Under the pieces are notes generated by a model. That model had not been told where the DNA came from and did not search any database. It saw only the letters and a program-made list of their open reading frames with translations. Positions 3,468-38,187 of a stretch of 64,000 nucleotides of DNA are shown here, in pieces. The translations under genes and the position numbers were made by a program. Numbering within the stretch: the stretch's first letter is position 1; each line of letters begins with the position of its first letter. The stretch spans positions 992,001 to 1,056,000 of the forward strand of contig NZ_SODV01000001.1 in the NCBI RefSeq assembly GCF_004366355.1, in the 5' to 3' direction. The DNA comes from Dinghuibacter silviterrae. Lineage in GTDB: Bacteria > Bacteroidota > Bacteroidia > Chitinophagales > Chitinophagaceae.

Positions 3468-4238
3468 ATGAACTACGAAATCAAACAGGAGGAGAAGTTC
3501 AGGTTTATTGAAGAAGGTCAGGGAGAGCCTCTTATCCTTCTGCATGGCTTGTTCGGAGAGTTGAGCAACTTTAAGGATCAGCTTGGCTACTTTAGCCGGC
3601 ACGGCTATAAAGTGGTCCTGCCCCTCCTTCCGCTTTTAGACCTGGACCTGCTGCACACCTCGGTGGGAGGATTGCAGAAATACGTGCATAAGTTCATCGA
3701 AACCAGGGATTACCAGGATATACACCTCCTGGGCAATTCTTTGGGCGGGCACGTGGCGTTGCTACACACCCTTAAACACCCTGAGCGGATCAAGTCCCTG
3801 ATCCTCACCGGTAGCTCCGGCCTTTTCGAAAACGGAATGGGCGACAGCTACCCCAAGAGAGGAGACTATGAATATATACGGCGCAAGACGGAGCTGACAT
3901 TTTACGACCCCGCGATGGCTACCAAAGAGCTGGTCGACGAGGTATACGCCATCACGTCCAACCGCCTCAACGTGGTCAAGATCATCGCCCTGGCCAAAAG
4001 CGCCATCCGCAACAACCTGGGTGAAGAGGTCAGCCAGATCCAGCAGCCTACCCTGCTCATCTGGGGGAATAACGATACGATCACGCCGCCGTTTGTGGGT
4101 AAAGAGTTCCACCGATTGATTCCTCATTCCGAGTTACATTTCATTGATAAATGCGGGCACGCGCCGATGATGGAAGTTCCCGGGGAGTTTAACCAGATCC
4201 TGGAAAAGTTCCTGACCAAGTTGCCGGTGAGTGCCTGA
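3468..4238 (+). CDS. alpha/beta hydrolase
   Basis: 256 residues from MNYEIKQEEKFRFIEEGQGE. The ATG at 3435 sits at the end of the hairpin repeats and is less likely. The fold is clear: oxyanion-hole motif LILLHGLFGE, nucleophile elbow GNSLGGH, acid loop LLIWGNNDTITPP and catalytic His in DKCGHAPMMEVP. This is a cytosolic serine hydrolase of unknown substrate. It heads an apparently co-directional run with the CBS, Omp85 and NAD kinase genes. Confidence 0.88.
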   Translation: MNYEIKQEEKFRFIEEGQGEPLILLHGLFGELSNFKDQLGYFSRHGYKVVLPLLPLLDLDLLHTSVGGLQKYVHKFIETRDYQDIHLLGNSLGGHVALLHTLKHPERIKSLILTGSSGLFENGMGDSYPKRGDYEYIRRKTELTFYDPAMATKELVDEVYAITSNRLNVVKIIALAKSAIRNNLGEEVSQIQQPTLLIWGNNDTITPPFVGKEFHRLIPHSELHFIDKCGHAPMMEVPGEFNQILEKFLTKLPVSA

Positions 4239-4252
4239 TAAAAGGACTACAC

Positions 4253-4915
4253 ATGCGGGCCGTTAACCTAATTTCACACGCTGTCCCCTTTCTGCGGGTA
4301 CAAGACACCGTAAGGCAGGCCTTGCAGCTCATGACCGACTTCCACATCACGCATCTTCCCGTGGTCCAGGACGACAAGTACCTGGGGCTGGTGGAGGAGA
4401 ATGCTTTGCTAGACATCGCCGACGAGGACACGCCGCTGGGTGAGACAGGTCTTGCCTGGAACCGCGCGGCCATCGGGGAGGAAGAGCATTTTCTCGCCGT
4501 TCTGCGTTTGTGGAAAAAAACGCGTCTCAGCGTCATCCCCGTCATCAACCGGGACATCGAGTTGCAGGGAGTGATCACCGCCACAGAGCTGCTGCTGGCC
4601 CTGGACGAGTATACCGCGGCGGAAGAACCGGGCGGTTTGATCGTCCTGAGCATCGAACCCCGGAACTTTTCGCTGAGCGAGATCGGGCGGCTGGCAGAAT
4701 CCAACGACGCCACCATCGTACACGTGGCTACACAAAAGGACCCAACTACGGGTATGCTGAGCGTGTCGATCAAATTGAACCGGAATGATATTCAGGATAT
4801 TCTCGCCACCTTTCAGCGATACGAGTATACCATAGAAACCTATTTCGGCGACAACCTGTCGGAAGATGATCTCCGCTCCAACTACGCTCACCTGATGAAC
4901 TACCTGAACATTTAA
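4253..4915 (+). CDS. CBS domain protein with C-terminal ACT-like region
   Basis: 220 residues. A tandem CBS pair fills about residues 1-120 (DFHITHLPVVQDDKYLGLVE and TRLSVIPVINRDIELQGVIT). The last 90 residues (GGLIVLSIEPRNFSLSEIGR onward) resemble an ACT-type ligand-binding fold. CBS pairs usually bind adenine nucleotides, so this is probably a cytosolic energy or ligand sensor; the partner is unknown. Its TAA overlaps the ATG of the next gene by one base. In other Bacteroidota this family is commonly found beside NAD kinase, which is also close here. Confidence 0.85.
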   Translation: MRAVNLISHAVPFLRVQDTVRQALQLMTDFHITHLPVVQDDKYLGLVEENALLDIADEDTPLGETGLAWNRAAIGEEEHFLAVLRLWKKTRLSVIPVINRDIELQGVITATELLLALDEYTAAEEPGGLIVLSIEPRNFSLSEIGRLAESNDATIVHVATQKDPTTGMLSVSIKLNRNDIQDILATFQRYEYTIETYFGDNLSEDDLRSNYAHLMNYLNI

Positions 4916-6333
4916 TGCTCGCGCGGCTTTGTGTTTGCGCGTTGCTCCTGCTACAAACGGTCGTGGTTTCAGCGCAGGACACCAGCACCGTCGTTGTACG
5001 GCGGATCGTGCTGACCGGTAATAAAAAAACAAAATCCTTCATCATCCTTCGGGAAGTGCCCTTCCGGGCGGGCGATCGCGTGCCCGTAGCGCAGTTGACG
5101 GGTCTTTTGCAAAAGGCCCACGACCAGCTCATGAACACCTTCCTGTTCATCAACGTCGTGCCGGGGATCATGGGGTGGAAGGACGGGGCGCTGGATGTGG
5201 TCTTTGACCTTAAGGAGCGCTGGTACATCTTTCCCATCCCCTATCTGAAGATCATCGACCGGAACTTTAACCAGTGGTGGGTGGAAGAGAACCACAGCCT
5301 GCAACGGGTAGACTACGGGATCCATTTCTCCTGGTACAATATGACCGGACGCAACGACAAGATGCACCTGTACCTGGAGAGCGGCTACAACCGCCTGGTC
5401 AACCTGGCGTACGAAAGCCCCTACCTGGACCGGCGGTTGCGACAGTATTTTACCTTTGGCGCACTATACAACAACGCCAAACAGGTCAATTTCGCCACCG
5501 ACTCCAATAAGCAGGTATTTTTCCCCGATACCACCCACCTCCAGGATGTTTTTGTCCACCGGACGATCCAGGGCAGCGTCGGGTATGTCTACCGCCTCGG
5601 GTCCACCCAAAAGCATTCCGTTCAGTTGACGTATACCGACGAACAACTGGGAGATACGATTAACCGGCTGACGGGGGAGAAGGGGTACGGGTCTTACTTT
5701 GCAAACAATCGCACGCACGTCCGTTACCCGGAACTCAGTTACACCTACCAGTACTTCGGCGTGGACTATATACCCTACCCGCTCAAGGGTTTTACGGTTT
5801 TTGCACAGATCGACGACAAGGGCTTGGGGATAAGTCCCGACGTCGACCTTTGGACGCTGACCCTGAGGGGCGGGTATTACCGGCCGCTGGCCCGCCGCAC
5901 CTTCCTGGGGGTGGAGGGCACCGTGGTCGCCAAGACGCCCTCGGCCCAGCCGTATGCATTTACACACCTTTTGGGGTTTGGCGGCTTGTACCTGCAGGGG
6001 CTCGAATACTACATCGTCGATGGGAATTTTGGCGCCCTGGGCCGGGTGACCCTCCGGCAAAAACTCGTTGACCACGACTTCACCACGATCTTCCGCGGCA
6101 GCCGGTTGTACGGGACCCTGCCCATCCGTGTTTTCTTAAAAGCGTACTTCAATGCGGGCTACGCATCCCTGAGCGGACCGTCCTACGGGAGCTTTTTGAA
6201 CAACCGTTTTTTGTATACGGAAGGGATCGGGCTGGACGTCGTTACCATATACGATCTACAGCTGAAGATCGAATTCTCTTGGAACCAATTGGGGCAAAGC
6301 GGGCTATTTTTGCATAATTACAAAGGTTTTTGA
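4915..6333 (+). CDS. Omp85/BamA-like outer-membrane protein
   Basis: 472 residues with a signal peptide (MLARLCVCALLLLQTVVVSAQ). One POTRA-like domain follows (VVVRRIVLTGNKKTKSFIIL through LDVVFDLKERWYIF), then a long beta-barrel region with alternating aromatic strands, ending in FLHNYKGF. With a single POTRA it is far shorter than BamA (about 800 residues or more), so it is more likely a specialised Omp85 or TamA-like protein than the essential BamA. The substrate is unknown. It is translationally coupled to the CBS gene (TAATG overlap). Confidence 0.75.
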   Translation: MLARLCVCALLLLQTVVVSAQDTSTVVVRRIVLTGNKKTKSFIILREVPFRAGDRVPVAQLTGLLQKAHDQLMNTFLFINVVPGIMGWKDGALDVVFDLKERWYIFPIPYLKIIDRNFNQWWVEENHSLQRVDYGIHFSWYNMTGRNDKMHLYLESGYNRLVNLAYESPYLDRRLRQYFTFGALYNNAKQVNFATDSNKQVFFPDTTHLQDVFVHRTIQGSVGYVYRLGSTQKHSVQLTYTDEQLGDTINRLTGEKGYGSYFANNRTHVRYPELSYTYQYFGVDYIPYPLKGFTVFAQIDDKGLGISPDVDLWTLTLRGGYYRPLARRTFLGVEGTVVAKTPSAQPYAFTHLLGFGGLYLQGLEYYIVDGNFGALGRVTLRQKLVDHDFTTIFRGSRLYGTLPIRVFLKAYFNAGYASLSGPSYGSFLNNRFLYTEGIGLDVVTIYDLQLKIEFSWNQLGQSGLFLHNYKGF

Positions 6334-6351
6334 ATAACTTTCCAATCAGTC

Positions 6352-7230
6352 ATGCGTATCGGCATTTATACGAGGGGCATTGAAGAAGACCAGCTGCAGG
6401 ATGTCCAGATGTTGATGGACGCGCTGTCCGCGCACCACATCACGCCCGTGGTCTACCGGCCTTTTTACGAACAGATCTGCGAAAGGGTCCGCTTTCCGGA
6501 GCCCATGGAACAATTCGAGACGTTTTACGACCTCGATGAACAAATAGAATGTTTTATCAGCCTGGGGGGAGACGGGACCCTGCTGGACACGGTTACCCTG
6601 GTCCGGGACAAGAAGATTCCCATCCTCGGGATCAACTTCGGCCGGCTGGGATTCCTGGCAGGCATAGGGAAAGAAGAGCTCACCACCGCCGTAGCCTCCC
6701 TCATCAACCGGACGTATGTCCTGGACCGACGCTCACTGATCCACCTTGATTCCGACGAACCCTTGTTCGGGGAAGTCCCTTACGCCCTCAACGAGTTTGC
6801 CATACACAAGAAGGATACGTCGCCCATGATCAAGATCCATACGTATCTGAACGGCGCCTTCCTCAATACGTATTGGGCCGACGGCCTGATTGTGGCCACC
6901 GCGACCGGTTCGACAGGGTACAACCTGAGCTGCAACGGTCCGGTGATTTTTCCCGACGCCGCCAACTTTGTCATTACGCCCGTGGCTCCCCATAACCTCA
7001 ATGTCCGCCCCATCGTGGTTCCCGACCACAACATCATCTCCTTCGAGGTCGAAGGCCGCTCGGACCAGTTTATTTGCGTCCTGGACGCCCGTAAGGAAGT
7101 GGTCAGCCGGCAGGTCCAGCTGGCCGTCAAAAAGGAATCGTTTTCGATCAACCTCCTTCGCCTCAATGAGAATACCTTTTTGCAGACCCTCCGGAACAAG
7201 CTGTCCTGGGGCCTGGATAAAAGAAACTGA
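6352..7230 (+). CDS. nadK: NAD kinase
   Basis: 292 residues, the normal family length. It makes NADP+ from NAD+ and ATP (or polyphosphate) in the cytosol. The diagnostic GGDGT motif is at residues 72-76 with the catalytic Asp at 74. Further family motifs are GINFGRLGFLAGI, ALNEFAIHK, DGLIVATATGSTGYNLSCNG and TPVAPHNLNVRPIVV. The gene starts 18 bases after the Omp85 gene, so it is probably in the same transcript. Confidence 0.97.
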   Translation: MRIGIYTRGIEEDQLQDVQMLMDALSAHHITPVVYRPFYEQICERVRFPEPMEQFETFYDLDEQIECFISLGGDGTLLDTVTLVRDKKIPILGINFGRLGFLAGIGKEELTTAVASLINRTYVLDRRSLIHLDSDEPLFGEVPYALNEFAIHKKDTSPMIKIHTYLNGAFLNTYWADGLIVATATGSTGYNLSCNGPVIFPDAANFVITPVAPHNLNVRPIVVPDHNIISFEVEGRSDQFICVLDARKEVVSRQVQLAVKKESFSINLLRLNENTFLQTLRNKLSWGLDKRN

Positions 7231-7280
7231 ATGGGTTGTATACAAAAACCCCGTACCGTGACGTTTGTACCAACAGCATT

Positions 7281-8123
7281 ATGAACAGATTTGTACTCCT
7301 TCTACTCGCTGTTTGCCTCGGCAGCTTCGCGGCAAAGGCTCAATATGAAGGATTTATCCATACCGGTGAAATCGGCATCACGGCGGGGGGGGCCAGTTAT
7401 TTCGGGAGCCTCAACACCAACGGGGATGTCACACATTCCAAAATGGCCTTTGGCGCCTTTTTCCGGAAACAATTCGGGGACTATGTCGCCGTACGCCTGG
7501 GTGGTCAATACGCCCGCGTCGGGTACAGCGACGTCTACAGCAAAAACGCCTTTCAACATACCCGCAACCTGAGCTTTAACAGCGACATCTGGGAAATGAC
7601 CCTGCAGGGGGACTTCAACTTTTTCCGTTTCAACCCCGTCGATCCGGATGAGCGGTTCACGCCCTACCTGACGTTTGGGCTGGGGGCTTTTCATTTTGAT
7701 CCTTATGCCTACCTGAACGGCCAGAAATACTACCTCCGGCCGCTTCATACCGAGGGCGAGGGTATCATCCCCGGCAAAAAGGAATACAGTACCATGGCCG
7801 TTTGTTTCCCGCTCGGCTTTGGGTTCAAGCTGGCGCTGAACGAAAGCGTGAACCTGGGCTTTGAGGTCCTTTACCGGTTTACGACGACCGGCTACCTGGA
7901 CGACGTCAACGGCACCTACGCCGGTGCCGCGGCCTTTCCGGCTTTGCCCAACGGCGAACCGTCCCCTGCCTATCTTCTGCAGGACCGCTCCTATGTATAT
8001 GGTGCCCCCATCGGCGAAGCCGGCCGTCAACGCGGCAACGGGGAGAAAGATTCCTACGCCACGGCATCCCTGACCCTCTCCTTTAACCTCAGCAGTTACC
8101 GCTGTCCGCCGGTACCAAAATAA
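7281..8123 (+). CDS. DUF6089 family outer-membrane beta-barrel protein
   Basis: 280 residues from MNRFVLLLLAVCLGSFAAKAQ, a clear signal peptide. The ATG at 7281 is preferred over the frame extension to 7236, which would spoil the signal sequence. The mature part has GEIGITAGGASYFGSLN and alternating beta strands, as in DUF6089, a Bacteroidota family often found next to NAD kinase and upstream of uppS and bamA. Here uppS is absent and ribosomal genes follow. A small periplasm-facing barrel is likely; the function is unknown. Confidence 0.8.
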   Translation: MNRFVLLLLAVCLGSFAAKAQYEGFIHTGEIGITAGGASYFGSLNTNGDVTHSKMAFGAFFRKQFGDYVAVRLGGQYARVGYSDVYSKNAFQHTRNLSFNSDIWEMTLQGDFNFFRFNPVDPDERFTPYLTFGLGAFHFDPYAYLNGQKYYLRPLHTEGEGIIPGKKEYSTMAVCFPLGFGFKLALNESVNLGFEVLYRFTTTGYLDDVNGTYAGAAAFPALPNGEPSPAYLLQDRSYVYGAPIGEAGRQRGNGEKDSYATASLTLSFNLSSYRCPPVPK

Positions 8124-34341: not shown

Positions 34342-34656
34342 ATGATAGAACGCCAATGGAAAGGAACCGCTCACCTCAGCGAAGCGGACCGGTATGTCGC
34401 CCACCTTCTGGAAGAAACTTTTCCCCAGCTCAAAAAGATCCCGGGTTTTTCAAAAGCAACCATCCTCCGGCGGGAAACTCCGGCGGGCGTGGAGTTCCAG
34501 GTTGTCACGGTATGGGAGTCCCTGGAGGCGGTGAAAAAATTTGCCGGTGAGGGCTATGACGAGGCGGTGGTCCCCGAAGTCGTCCGGGAAATGATGGTGG
34601 ATTACGACGAAACCGTGGTCCATTACGAGATCGTCCGGGAGGTGCACCACGCGTGA
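34342..34656 (+). CDS. antibiotic-biosynthesis-monooxygenase-like small protein
   Basis: 104 residues from MIERQWKGTAHLSEADRYVA. The fold pattern (beta-alpha-beta with GFSKATILRRETPAGVEFQV and VTVWESLEAVKKFAGEGYDE) fits the dimeric ferredoxin-like ABM family. These are small oxygenases or quinone or stress enzymes; the substrate is unknown. Its TGA overlaps the GTG start of the AraC-type regulator by four bases, so the two are coupled. Confidence 0.7.
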   Translation: MIERQWKGTAHLSEADRYVAHLLEETFPQLKKIPGFSKATILRRETPAGVEFQVVTVWESLEAVKKFAGEGYDEAVVPEVVREMMVDYDETVVHYEIVREVHHA

Positions 34657-35585
34657 ACGCGGTTTTTGTTCTTCCTCCGCACGTCCATTTGCTGGACATG
34701 ACCGGGCCTGCCCATATTTTTTACGAATCGGCTTGTTATGGGGGACCGGTGCGGTCGTTGTTTAGCACGATGTTTTTAGACCAGGTGGAGGTGGTGAGCA
34801 GCAGCAGCCTGGCCTTTGGACAGTTGACGCCGTACAACCGGCTCGACTTGGAAAAAGGGGACCTCATTTTCATACCCGGTCTGGAAGGAAGCCTGCTCCT
34901 GACGGAGGCCTTCCTGGAATCGGCAAAACCTTTTCTGGCGTGGCTCCGGGAGCAACACGCCCGGGGTGTCCTGGTGTGCTCGGTGTGTACGGGCGCCTTC
35001 CTGCTGGCGGAATCGGGCTTGCTGGACGGGTTGTCCTGTACCACGCACTGGAAGTATGCGGAACGGTTCACGCGACGCTACCCGGGAATACGGCTCCTGG
35101 CCAATCGCCTGTTTGTGCGGGAAGAGGGTATTTTCACCAGCGCCGGGGTGGCCTCAGGAATCGACCTGGCGTTGCACCTGGTGCAACAGCTTTGGGGACC
35201 TTATTTTGCGGCCCAGATCGCAAAGGAGGTCGTGGTGTATTTCCGAAGGGCGCCTGATGATCCACAGTTTAGCGTGTTTATACAATACCGAAACCATATC
35301 GACAACCGGATCCACCTCATTCAGGACCGGCTGGCACAGTCGCTGGACCAGAAGCTGACCGTAGAAGACCTCGCGGACGTGGTGAGCATGAGTCCGCGGA
35401 ACCTAACCCGTCTCTTCAAGAAAACAACCCAGATCACCATCGGGGATTACCTCGAAAAGCTTCGCGTGGAAAGGGCTGAGCAGCTCATCAGCGACGGGCA
35501 GACGATGCAGGCGGCGGCGCTGCATTGCGGGTTGAAGAGTACCAATCAGTTGCGCAGCCTGCTGAGGCGGCACAGGGGGGCGTAA
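34653..35585 (+). CDS. GlxA-type AraC regulator with DJ-1/PfpI domain
   Basis: 310 residues starting at GTG (overlap GTGA with the previous gene). Residues 1-190 are a DJ-1/PfpI domain retaining the elbow Cys112 in SVCTGAFLLAESGLLDG. Residues 210-305 are the AraC/XylS double helix-turn-helix (LTVEDLADVVSMSPRNLTRL, GDYLEKLRVERAEQLI). It is a cytosolic transcription regulator sensing an unknown small molecule. Likely targets are its own operon and the exported DJ-1 gene that follows, but this is inference. Confidence 0.88.
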   Translation: MNAVFVLPPHVHLLDMTGPAHIFYESACYGGPVRSLFSTMFLDQVEVVSSSSLAFGQLTPYNRLDLEKGDLIFIPGLEGSLLLTEAFLESAKPFLAWLREQHARGVLVCSVCTGAFLLAESGLLDGLSCTTHWKYAERFTRRYPGIRLLANRLFVREEGIFTSAGVASGIDLALHLVQQLWGPYFAAQIAKEVVVYFRRAPDDPQFSVFIQYRNHIDNRIHLIQDRLAQSLDQKLTVEDLADVVSMSPRNLTRLFKKTTQITIGDYLEKLRVERAEQLISDGQTMQAAALHCGLKSTNQLRSLLRRHRGA

Positions 35586-35699: not shown

Positions 35700-36515
35700 A
35701 TGAAAACCCTTTGGTCCATCGCCCTTTTCCTGGCCCCCTTGCTTACGGGGGCGATCAAAGCGCACGCACAAACCGACACCACTACTATGGCCTACTATTG
35801 CCCCTTCTGCGGAAACGATTGCGACAAGATCGCGTACACCCAACCCGGTAAGTGCCCGCATTGCGGGATGGACCTTGTCCTGGAAAGCAGGGCGTCCCAC
35901 GAAAAAAAAGACACGGTCCAACGGCTGAAGGTCCTGTTTTATCTACAGGACGGCGTTGAGGTCCTGGACTTTGCAGGGCCTATGGAGGTCTTTTCTTACG
36001 CAGGATTTGATGTAAAAGTAGTGTCCAGGACAAAGGACCCGATCGTCTCTCAGGGCATCCTGAAGATCATCCCCGACTACAGCATCGACGACGCGCCCGC
36101 GGCGGACATCCTGGCCTTTTTTGGCGGGAACGCAGGGGCGGCCGCGAGCGATAGCCTGGTCATCCGCTGGCTTCAGGGGATGACGACACCGGACTACTAT
36201 TTCTCCGTCTGTACGGGGGCCTTTATCATGGGCAAGGCGGGGCTTTTGGACAACCTGATGGTGACAACGTTTCATGAAAGCCTCGACCATCTGCAACAGG
36301 CGGTTCCCAGCGCCAAGGTCCTGAGGGGTGTCCGCTTTGTCGACAACGGGCGGGTGATCACGACCGCGGGGATCTCGGCGGGGATTGACGGCGCCCTTCA
36401 CCTGGTAGAAAAGATCCGCGGGCGGGATGCGGCGGAGCAGGTCGCGGCTTATATGGAGTATGATAAATGGGTGCCGAATCAGGGGTTGGTGGTCAATTCA
36501 TCAGGTGCGAAATAA
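35700..36515 (+). CDS. exported HMBD - DJ-1/PfpI fusion protein
   Basis: 271 residues. A signal peptide (1-24, ending AHAQ) is followed by a heavy-metal-binding HMBD motif at about 31-60 (YYCPFCGNDCDKIAY and PGKCPHCGMDLV, with six Cys and one His). A complete DJ-1/PfpI domain follows at 76-262 with elbow Cys171 in SVCTGAFIMGKAGLLDN. HMBD motifs are normally found in copper or heavy-metal efflux proteins, so an exported DJ-1 carrying one is unusual. It is probably a periplasmic metal- or redox-related enzyme. Confidence 0.85.
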   Translation: MKTLWSIALFLAPLLTGAIKAHAQTDTTTMAYYCPFCGNDCDKIAYTQPGKCPHCGMDLVLESRASHEKKDTVQRLKVLFYLQDGVEVLDFAGPMEVFSYAGFDVKVVSRTKDPIVSQGILKIIPDYSIDDAPAADILAFFGGNAGAAASDSLVIRWLQGMTTPDYYFSVCTGAFIMGKAGLLDNLMVTTFHESLDHLQQAVPSAKVLRGVRFVDNGRVITTAGISAGIDGALHLVEKIRGRDAAEQVAAYMEYDKWVPNQGLVVNSSGAK

Positions 36516-36537
36516 ACTTTTAATTATCAATTACTTA

Positions 36538-36566
36538 ATTAATCGCGACACTATGTCGCGATTAAT
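36538..36566. repeat. 13-bp inverted repeat at the 3' end of the deaminase-ATPase gene
   Basis: ATTAATCGCGACA (36538-36550) and TGTCGCGATTAAT (36554-36566) pair perfectly around CTA, which is the complement of the gene's TAG stop codon. A third copy of the core ATCGCGACA, on the coding strand, follows at 36565-36573. The AT-rich flank on the left could serve as a U-tract for minus-strand termination. Confidence 0.75.
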
Positions 36567-38053
36567 GTCGCGATAACTTGATAGTATGTTGTGGGACCTG
36601 CTCCCTTACGCTCAATGAGGTTATGGCTTACAAATTTGCTTAAATGCCGTTCAGCTTTTTTCTTGTCAAATTTGAAATGATGCTCATAGTCCTGCCTCGT
36701 AACCTTTTCCTTTAGCTTTATAAACTCGTAACCTTGAAGTTCATCTTCGCTAAGCATGTCTACTCCCTTTTGAACAGATACCCTCTTTACAGCTTCCATA
36801 GATCTAGGGAAAGTCAGGGTAAGAAAGGGGTCTTGAAATGTATATTCCGGTAGTGGCAACCCGTATCTTAATTGCAACGATTGTAGCGCTTCCATACCAA
36901 AGCCGGCCTCCTCTACGTATTTCATTAGATTAAAGACATATGTAATAACTGGATTTCGACTGATGGAGGGTGCTTTAAAGGTGTTCAATTGTTCAAGAGA
37001 GATCGAGTGAACGGGCGATCCGGGGCTTTTTATGACGATCTTGTCGCTATTTATCTGAAGATAGGATTTGGCACCGTCTATACTATAGTCCCTATGCACA
37101 ATTGCATTTATAACGGCCTCGCGGAGGACTTCCATGGGAAATACAGGGACATCTCTTCTTCTAAAGGTCGAAGTGTCTTTTGTAATAGGTAAGACCTTTC
37201 TTATCCATTCCTCAACGAGTTCGGGGACAAGAACCAGAGGCTGATCAAAATCTTTTGACTCGATATTGCTCTCCCCATAGTCGACTGAACATTTTAAGAC
37301 GGCCTGTTTATATTTTGTTCTCGGGTTGCGTCCGAATAACAGAATACCAAAACCAGTTGGTCTTTGTTGACCATCTTTCTTATCAATTGCAAGAACACCG
37401 AGATCTGTTAGAAAGGTTTTGAATTCAGGTTGCTCCACTTTAAATGACAGATTTGCTTGGTCTATAAATTTTTGTAAGGCATAGACGGAGAGGGTATCAA
37501 TATTTGACGTGGCAATGGGCAAATCGATAGTGGGTAAAGGTTCCTCCTCTACCTTGCGTTTTCTTTCCAGCGCTTGTTTTAAGAAATCAACGTTTTCCTT
37601 TTCTATCTCCTTCTGAAGGTCTCTGTCAAACATGACTACGCGAACCCCATTTTTTTCAAGGTGGTTTATGCCTTTGGTAGAGACAGTTGGGTCAGGATCT
37701 ATAATACCAATATAGACCGTTTTTATCCGGGCGTTCGTCGTACGCCTACAACAAGCGATTTTAGGGTGACCTCTTTCGACGCAAGGTTCGAGTGTGGTAA
37801 ATAACGTACATTCCGATAAATTCTTATCTGAAAGCTTTCTTTCTATAAGTGTATACTCGGCATGGTCTCCCTCTCTAAGTTCTCCCCGGTGTGCGCTGGT
37901 TACCTCTCCATCAGGAAATAATATTACCGCACCCACCTTTGGCGGCACTTTCCCGTCAATCCTGGCCTCGTTTACCGATCGCCTCATTTCCTCGATGGCC
38001 ATTAACATATAATCCCTGGCGGTGTAGCCCACGCTTTCTTTCACTCCTGCCAT
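36551..38053 (-). CDS. RibD/dCMP-type deaminase fused to COG2865-type ATPase and winged helix
   Basis: 500 residues. Residues 10-160 are a cytidine-deaminase-fold domain: zinc motif HAE at 64-66, LEPCVERG (Cys91) and Cys101/102, then RibD-like IGIIDPDPTVSTKGINHL. Residues 185-420 match the core of COG2865 ATP-binding proteins (TGFGILLFGRNP, the GHKL-type LREAVINAIVHRDY at 310-323, SPGSP, RNPVITYVFNLMKYVEEAGFG). A C-terminal winged helix covers about 430-495. The N-terminal AlbA/Schlafen-like domain usual for COG2865 is replaced by the deaminase. Codon use is AT-rich, unlike both neighbours. No partner gene is seen. A nucleotide-sensing or defence role is inference. Confidence 0.85.
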   Translation of the reverse strand: MAGVKESVGYTARDYMLMAIEEMRRSVNEARIDGKVPPKVGAVILFPDGEVTSAHRGELREGDHAEYTLIERKLSDKNLSECTLFTTLEPCVERGHPKIACCRRTTNARIKTVYIGIIDPDPTVSTKGINHLEKNGVRVVMFDRDLQKEIEKENVDFLKQALERKRKVEEEPLPTIDLPIATSNIDTLSVYALQKFIDQANLSFKVEQPEFKTFLTDLGVLAIDKKDGQQRPTGFGILLFGRNPRTKYKQAVLKCSVDYGESNIESKDFDQPLVLVPELVEEWIRKVLPITKDTSTFRRRDVPVFPMEVLREAVINAIVHRDYSIDGAKSYLQINSDKIVIKSPGSPVHSISLEQLNTFKAPSISRNPVITYVFNLMKYVEEAGFGMEALQSLQLRYGLPLPEYTFQDPFLTLTFPRSMEAVKRVSVQKGVDMLSEDELQGYEFIKLKEKVTRQDYEHHFKFDKKKAERHLSKFVSHNLIERKGAGPTTYYQVIATLIAT

Positions 38054-38187
38054 GTTTATTTATTTTCTCGATGATGCACCGATATTAAAACAAACTTTGA
38101 GGCTGGATTAACCCATTTGGATAGATTTTTTTATCCTACCATTAATTTGGTTGCCGGGGCTCCGAAAAACGAGGGAGGGGATCCCCC

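Follow-up and report, generated by a model that had tools for sequence, protein, structure and literature searches.

What is the role of a gene that joins a zinc deaminase of the RibD type, an ATPase core, and a winged helix in a single protein chain? The question is raised by an open reading frame in a stretch of 64,000 nucleotides (positions 992,001 to 1,056,000 of contig NZ_SODV01000001.1) from the genome of Dinghuibacter silviterrae, hereafter called the window. A preliminary description of the frame, made from the sequence, had called it an orphan gene and a candidate single-gene defence system. The gene and its parts lie at the following window coordinates:

36551..38053, minus strand: complete fusion gene, 500 aa from ATG (open reading frame; two Pfam domains over cut-off; relatives with like length and architecture)
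37559..38023, minus strand: RibD-type zinc deaminase domain, residues 11-165 (PF00383; TIGR00326 below cut-off; RibG Z 21.4 over 146 residues)
37856..37864, minus strand: H64-A65-E66, zinc ligand and catalytic glutamate (invariant, 80/80)
37751..37786, minus strand: P90-C91...R94...C101, zinc cysteines and candidate phosphate-binding Arg at C+3 (C91 and C101 80/80; R94 79/80)
37670..37699, minus strand: DPDPTVSTKG, residues 119-128 (D119/D121 against BsRibG D101/N103 in the HMMER alignment to 2b3z)
37154..37486, minus strand: connector domain of the bacterial Schlafen scaffold, residues 190-300 (hhalign to bacterial Schlafen)
36803..37141, minus strand: HATPase_c_4 core, residues 305-417, with N-box E312-x-x-N316-A-x-x-H320-R-D-Y (PF13749; residue counts; 3lmm match)
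36569..36760, minus strand: predicted C-terminal winged helix, residues 432-495 (AlphaFold; alignment with the MarR-like HTH end of bacterial Schlafen)
36516..38187, no strand: AT-rich single-gene insert between a DJ-1/PfpI gene and a DUF4249 gene (GC contrast)

Domain Architecture of the Fusion Protein

When the sequence was re-read, the frame at 36551-38053 and its motifs HAE (64-66), PC (90-91), and DPDPTVSTKG (119-128) stood where the preliminary description had placed them. In Pfam, the window protein matches dCMP_cyt_deam_1 (PF00383) at residues 13-116 (E 1.4e-10) and HATPase_c_4 (PF13749) at residues 327-415 (E 1.2e-14), both over the curated cut-off. The motif of the GHKL-like core described earlier, LREAVINAIVHRDY, lies at residues 310-323. 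SLFN_AlbA_2 (PF04326) gave no match in the window protein up to E 1, and no RibD_C reductase domain was found in it by Pfam. The top NCBIfam model is RibD (TIGR00326), which covers residues 33-160 only and scores 51.8 bits against a cut-off of 156.35. No whole-protein family for the fusion was found in PADLOC-2023, NCBIfam, Pfam, or PHROGs, with only partial matches to the core in PADLOC.

An AlphaFold model built on the alignment of 80 family sequences (mean pLDDT 91.5) shows a CDA-type domain, a HATPase core, and a winged-helix-like C-terminal unit at residues 432-495, composed of helices 436-448, 453-460, and 464-476 and strands 480-483 and 490-493; a C-terminal winged helix, as had been proposed, is thus predicted. 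Residues 9-165 of the model match RibG/RibD in the PDB (Z ~21, rmsd 2.0-2.4 over 144-146 residues), and residues 148-495 match the COG2865 protein 3lmm (Z 21.9, 284 residues, rmsd 8.4 A), where the high rmsd probably reflects domain movement.

The Deaminase Active Site

A first scan of genome contigs with the window protein alone as the query found no relatives. With a four-sequence alignment as the query, a scan of 85,000 species genomes returned 132, the best 80 of which were kept, and residue counts were taken over these 80 aligned rows. The gene is an orphan within the window, as had been stated, but it has at least 80 full-length relatives elsewhere.

In the family alignment H64, E66, P90, C91, C101, and D119 are invariant (80/80), R94 is present in 79/80, and the D121 position holds Asp in 68/80 and Asn in 6/80. 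Conservation of the zinc residues in homologues had been set beforehand as a test of the deaminase reading, and it extends to all 80 aligned relatives; as for the cysteine pair described at 101-102, C101 is the invariant residue at the second Cys ligand position, but C102 is not general in the family. The zinc site of the CDA superfamily (H-x-E and P-C-x(n)-C) is therefore intact, and it lies in a predicted CDA fold (fold match Z 21). R94 is exactly three residues past C91, the C+3 position, and D119 and D121 align with D101 and N103 of BsRibG in the HMMER alignment to 2b3z. In the fungal Rib2 of A. oryzae, the zinc ligands are His61, Cys102, and Cys112, and Arg105, three residues past the first Cys, forms a salt bridge with the substrate phosphate; in B. 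subtilis RibG, the ribose contacts are Asp101 and Asn103 (PMC8256712). From these active-site residues, which support an active deaminase on a phosphorylated nucleotide, we infer both the activity and the kind of substrate, which is probably a nucleotide other than a riboflavin intermediate.

The fusion thus shares with RibD/RibG and fungal Rib2 the CDA fold, the HAE and PC...C zinc site, the D101-type ribose residue, and the Rib2-type Arg at C+3. It differs from RibD/RibG in that it is without the reductase domain, falls below the RibD cut-off, has mostly Asp at the N103 position, and carries conserved features of its own, RGELRxGDHAE and E71-R72-K73. Relatives differ less in the deaminase half (mean pairwise distance 0.40) than in the sensor half (0.56), a pattern that would fit a small-molecule substrate that stays fixed while the sensor diversifies.

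A deaminase joined to a winged helix could instead edit nucleic acid: the winged helix would bind phage or unmodified DNA or RNA, and the deaminase would mutate it or mark it for excision, with no emptying of the nucleotide pool. The deaminase domain indeed matches an Inv-AAD/APOBEC-type model (PF18785, E 1.6e-11) and APOBEC structures, and both the winged helix and the R-M context described below suggest contact with DNA. However, the nearest structures and sequences are those of RibD/RibG and not of TadA or APOBEC, and the RibD-type ribose (D119) and phosphate (R94) positions are kept, which points to a mononucleotide, so that we regard editing as unlikely. The apparent APOBEC-like affinity was set aside as non-specific, given that canonical RibD matches PF18785 as well.

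A Bacterial Schlafen Scaffold

Residues 190-497 of the fusion family align to residues 164-463 of a bacterial Schlafen from the same bacterial family (L007; hhalign probability 99.7). That protein has SLFN_AlbA_2 at 24-134, HATPase_c_4 at 301-379, and a MarR-like winged helix, and the alignment spans everything past its RNase domain. Judged by this homology, the C-terminal half is specifically a bacterial Schlafen scaffold, a point beyond the preliminary description, and the RibD-type deaminase takes the place of the N-terminal Schlafen RNase while the rest of the scaffold is kept. At the ATP site, R321 is invariant (80/80), E312, N316, and H320 are found in 79/80, as is Y323, and the G2-like G386 in 77/80. 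SPG at residues 343-345 stands where DxGxG would be expected; the N-box is kept, and the ATP-binding motifs are only partly canonical.

Bacterial Schlafens with a C-terminal kinase-like domain and a wHTH have been described as anti-phage RNases tied to BREX loci (PMC12839542), and TrlG (AlbA_2 and HATPase_c_4) has been shown by genetics to halt the growth of Photorhabdus on a temperature up-shift (PMC7554251). The fusion resembles the bacterial Schlafens (COG2865; SLFN_AlbA_2, HATPase_c_4, and wHTH; TrlG included) in its connector, HATPase_c_4, and winged helix, in their order, and in a recurrent link to R-M or BREX-type loci (R-M for the fusion; PMC12839542, PMC7554251), whereas it is without the AlbA_2 RNase and has a RibD-type deaminase instead. 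An ordinary bacterial Schlafen of the AlbA_2 and HATPase_c_4 type (L074:6455-8146) is the next gene downstream of one fusion.

PADLOC models of Argonaute-associated SIR2 proteins (Aga_SIR2) match residues 137-354 of the window protein (E 1.1e-15). A SIR2-Schlafen-APAZ orthogroup has been described, as have Schlafen domains fused to long-B Argonautes (PMC6299218). Like the SIR2-Schlafen-APAZ proteins of Argonaute operons, the fusion has an effector enzyme ahead of a Schlafen-type core, and pAgo is found near five fusions. In contrast, those proteins have SIR2 in place of the deaminase, together with APAZ, which is absent from the fusion, and the Argonautes beside the fusion (~682 aa) exceed in length the short MID-PIWI pAgos with which most APAZ proteins are paired. 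In its predicted architecture, the fusion sets a new effector on a scaffold that was already known. We found no description of a deaminase-Schlafen fusion in the open-access literature that we searched; the 2011 deaminase-fold survey or the 2025 bacterial Schlafen preprint could mention it.

Association with Defence Loci

Genes were called and profiled around the 80 loci, with up to 10 kb of flank on each side, and R-M genes or pAgo are present at 31 of them. Type I R-M genes (HsdR, HsdM, or HsdS) occur at 20/80 loci, and a further locus (L050) has a fragment of HsdR. Type III Mod/Res genes occur at 5/80, type IIG (Eco57I-type) at 3/80 (L011, L013, and L015), and Dcm with Vsr in L083. A pAgo (Piwi domain) is found at 5/80 loci, directly downstream in L041, L065, L076, and L080 and slightly further in L068, and three of these five also have type III genes. 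Further adjoining genes encode AIPR (L065, L068), a caspase (L080), OLD/TOPRIM (L075), and HerA (L022), and PADLOC tallies of the immediate neighbours agree with this R-M, pAgo, and defence context. More than half of the loci are without a recognised defence gene, to some extent owing to the shortness of many contigs, and none adjoins the fusion in the window.

In L018 and L019, where the gene order is hsdM-hsdS-fusion-hsdR, the frames of HsdS and the fusion share 4 nt, as do those of Res and the fusion in L026; by their positions, both arrangements look translationally coupled. The whole genomes of 49 relatives hold 98 matches to HSDR_N, one per ~2 Mb. Among these 49, 11 have a verified HsdR gene in the flanking DNA that was sampled (L018, L019, L023, L024, L040, L052, L054, L060, L061, L072, and L075), against 0.46 expected by chance; as the genomes are related, a Poisson P for this excess serves only as a guide. 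Three of 14 loci with HsdR by coordinate overlap (L009, L053, and L076) were dropped, as the sequence there is an open frame other than HsdR, on what is probably a different contig. When the labels are mapped onto the protein tree, type I requires 11 changes and pAgo requires 3, and both associations are therefore repeated. The fusion family is non-randomly linked to defence genes.

A restriction of homologues to core metabolic contexts, such as riboflavin synthesis, had been named beforehand as grounds for refutation; many are in R-M, Argonaute, and other defence loci, and no riboflavin gene recurs beside the fusion among the profiled loci. The proposal of a candidate single-gene defence system, with a deaminase gated by the ATPase and winged-helix part, is well motivated by the zinc site and the defence loci, but many relatives are partners within R-M operons.

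Two observations concern the layout of individual loci. The Argonautes downstream of the fusion (L041:11811-13859, L065:6909-8954, L076:12055-14118, L080:11692-13737, and, at a greater distance, L068) are Piwi-domain proteins of ~682 aa encoded on the same strand as the fusion. In L066 (upstream fragment; 3669-7850) and L062, a short piece of the HsdR N-terminus is encoded immediately upstream of the fusion, and the L066 fragment repeats the start of the full downstream HsdR, as if the fusion had inserted into hsdR or been tandemly copied there.

The position of many copies inside R-M operons would also suit a regulator, in which the deaminase fold served as a nucleotide sensor and the winged helix controlled transcription of the adjoining defence genes, and COG2865-type proteins have been named transcriptional regulators (e.g., Pfam DIP2311-like_C). 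We consider this improbable. The full catalytic set is retained in 80/80 relatives, unlike what would be seen in a decayed ligand-binding domain, the stand-alone copies (window, L027, L033, and L086) have nothing obvious to regulate, and the relatives of the scaffold are effectors (TrlG in growth arrest and the Schlafen RNases).

Distribution and Mobility

The fusion architecture is present in at least 80 species from ~20 phyla, including the archaeon Methanolobus, and nearly all of the best 80 of the 132 relatives are complete fusions of ~490-505 aa, while a few are truncated or frame-shifted. Within the bacterial family of the host, 4/296 genomes encode it (the host, G003, G082, and G269); a fifth match in that search, G118, proved to be an ordinary bacterial Schlafen. 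A sample of the phylum yielded the fusion in 8/395 genomes, always as a frame of 497-509 aa. The protein tree of the 80 relatives intermixes ~20 phyla, the Bacteroidota rows need at least eight changes, and none of Pseudomonadota, Planctomycetota, and Methanobacteriota forms a single group, although some rows come from metagenome bins and could be wrongly binned. One contig labelled as a Klebsiella pneumoniae MAG (L060), with the fusion and type I R-M genes, groups with copies from environmental bacteria and is possibly mis-binned. From its phylogeny and distribution, the fusion is a horizontally mobile, patchily spread gene.

The GC content of the window gene is 0.41-0.46 (42%) compared with 0.50-0.61 (~56%) on both sides, and the sole congener keeps the left-hand AraC/DJ-1 gene pair without the fusion. 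Given the low GC and the congener without it, the window copy looks like a single gene that was recently acquired in the D. silviterrae genome; the right flank of the congener differs, so that a clean empty site could not be demonstrated there. The gene pair on the left (window 34653-35585 and 35700-36515), also conserved in the congener, encodes DJ-1/PfpI-domain proteins, of which one carries an AraC HTH and the other a heavy-metal-binding domain.

At the sensitivity used, the full fusion was not found in IMG/VR, INPHARED, or PLSDB. Viral scans returned two deaminase-only relatives, neither of them a fusion, and searches of plasmid and phage proteins gave half-matches only, of the RibD or the COG2865 type. 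A deaminase on an IMG/VR contig (L088:7983-8876) belongs to the same subfamily, with RGExxxGHHAEFT and the C+3 Arg; its C-terminal part differs and resembles a stretch of a DUF4062 protein, which hints at other deaminase fusions. A small recurrent protein of 128-156 aa is encoded 128-241 nt downstream of the fusion in L008 (3253-3639), L010 (11628-12098), and L081 (2935-3399), and its L010 copy has no Pfam or NCBIfam match. L008 and L010 carry nearly identical fusion genes in different flanks, which suggests a two-gene cassette with the small protein.

A patchy, scattered distribution and copies beside integrases (L031, L055, and L056) or a transposase (L005) are also what might be seen if the fusion were a selfish gene that maintains mobile elements through addiction or competition between elements and travels with defence islands as a hitchhiker, without protection against phage. 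This seems to us slightly less likely still, since no separate antitoxin recurs beside the fusion among the profiled loci, the positions coupled with HsdS and Res occur in several lineages, and the searches of viral and plasmid collections returned no full fusion. Finally, although RibD is the closest single-domain family, a house-keeping or salvage role in riboflavin or pyrimidine metabolism, as an enzyme with a fused regulator, is very unlikely, given the missing reductase domain, a score of 51.8 bits against the 156-bit cut-off, an occurrence in ~2% or fewer of the family and phylum genomes, and the lack of recurring riboflavin neighbours, and a riboflavin role was rejected because a canonical RibD (G000:C2, 246.9 bits) is encoded elsewhere in the host genome.

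A Proposed Role in Phage Defence

We favor, with only slightly more confidence than doubt, the hypothesis that the fusion is a mobile, single-gene anti-phage protein of the abortive-infection type, in which a Schlafen-type sensor controls a mononucleotide deaminase effector; the fusion is probably an as yet unnamed phage-defence protein. The connector, HATPase_c_4, and winged-helix half would be the sensor and regulator, and the RibD-type deaminase would be the effector. The gating, trigger, outcome, and protection against phage would then be as follows. In the resting cell, the scaffold would keep the deaminase inactive. A sign of infection, such as DNA that is foreign or unmodified, a block to restriction, or some other nucleic acid made by the phage, would engage the winged helix and the ATP site, and the freed deaminase would hydrolyse a free mononucleotide of the pyrimidine type, such as dCMP/CMP or a related compound in the pool. 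The disturbed nucleotide pool would halt phage and cell together. For the relatives inside R-M operons, the fusion may act as a back-up, in a position that we take to be comparable to that of PrrC-type guardians.

Several antiviral systems provide analogies. The dCTP deaminase systems, AvcD, RADAR RdrB, and Cad1 likewise use a nucleotide-acting deaminase as the antiviral effector (PMC10511110, PMC9994260, PMC11645235), but their control modules (an RNA antitoxin, an AAA+ ATPase, or CARF) are all missing from the fusion, and the PADLOC dCTPase match of the window protein has an E-value of only 0.03.

More tentatively, and with rather less confidence than we place in the defence role itself, we suggest that the Schlafen sensor scaffold may serve generally as a chassis on which effectors can be swapped (RNase, SIR2, and RibD-type deaminase) in a widespread, unnamed defence class, and that the deaminase may have been turned from vitamin synthesis to the destruction of a nucleotide, possibly one that is not yet recognised as an immune target. 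The deaminase-Argonaute partnership merits separate study. If our proposal is correct, RibD-type deaminases would be a further enzyme class among the effectors of the Schlafen immune scaffold, available as a portable single gene of ~1.5 kb, spread across many phyla and directly testable. Sensing by the Schlafen HATPase and winged-helix half could then be studied through a readable enzymatic output in place of RNase toxicity, and the possibility of a nucleotide-depleting back-up within R-M and Argonaute loci would become testable.
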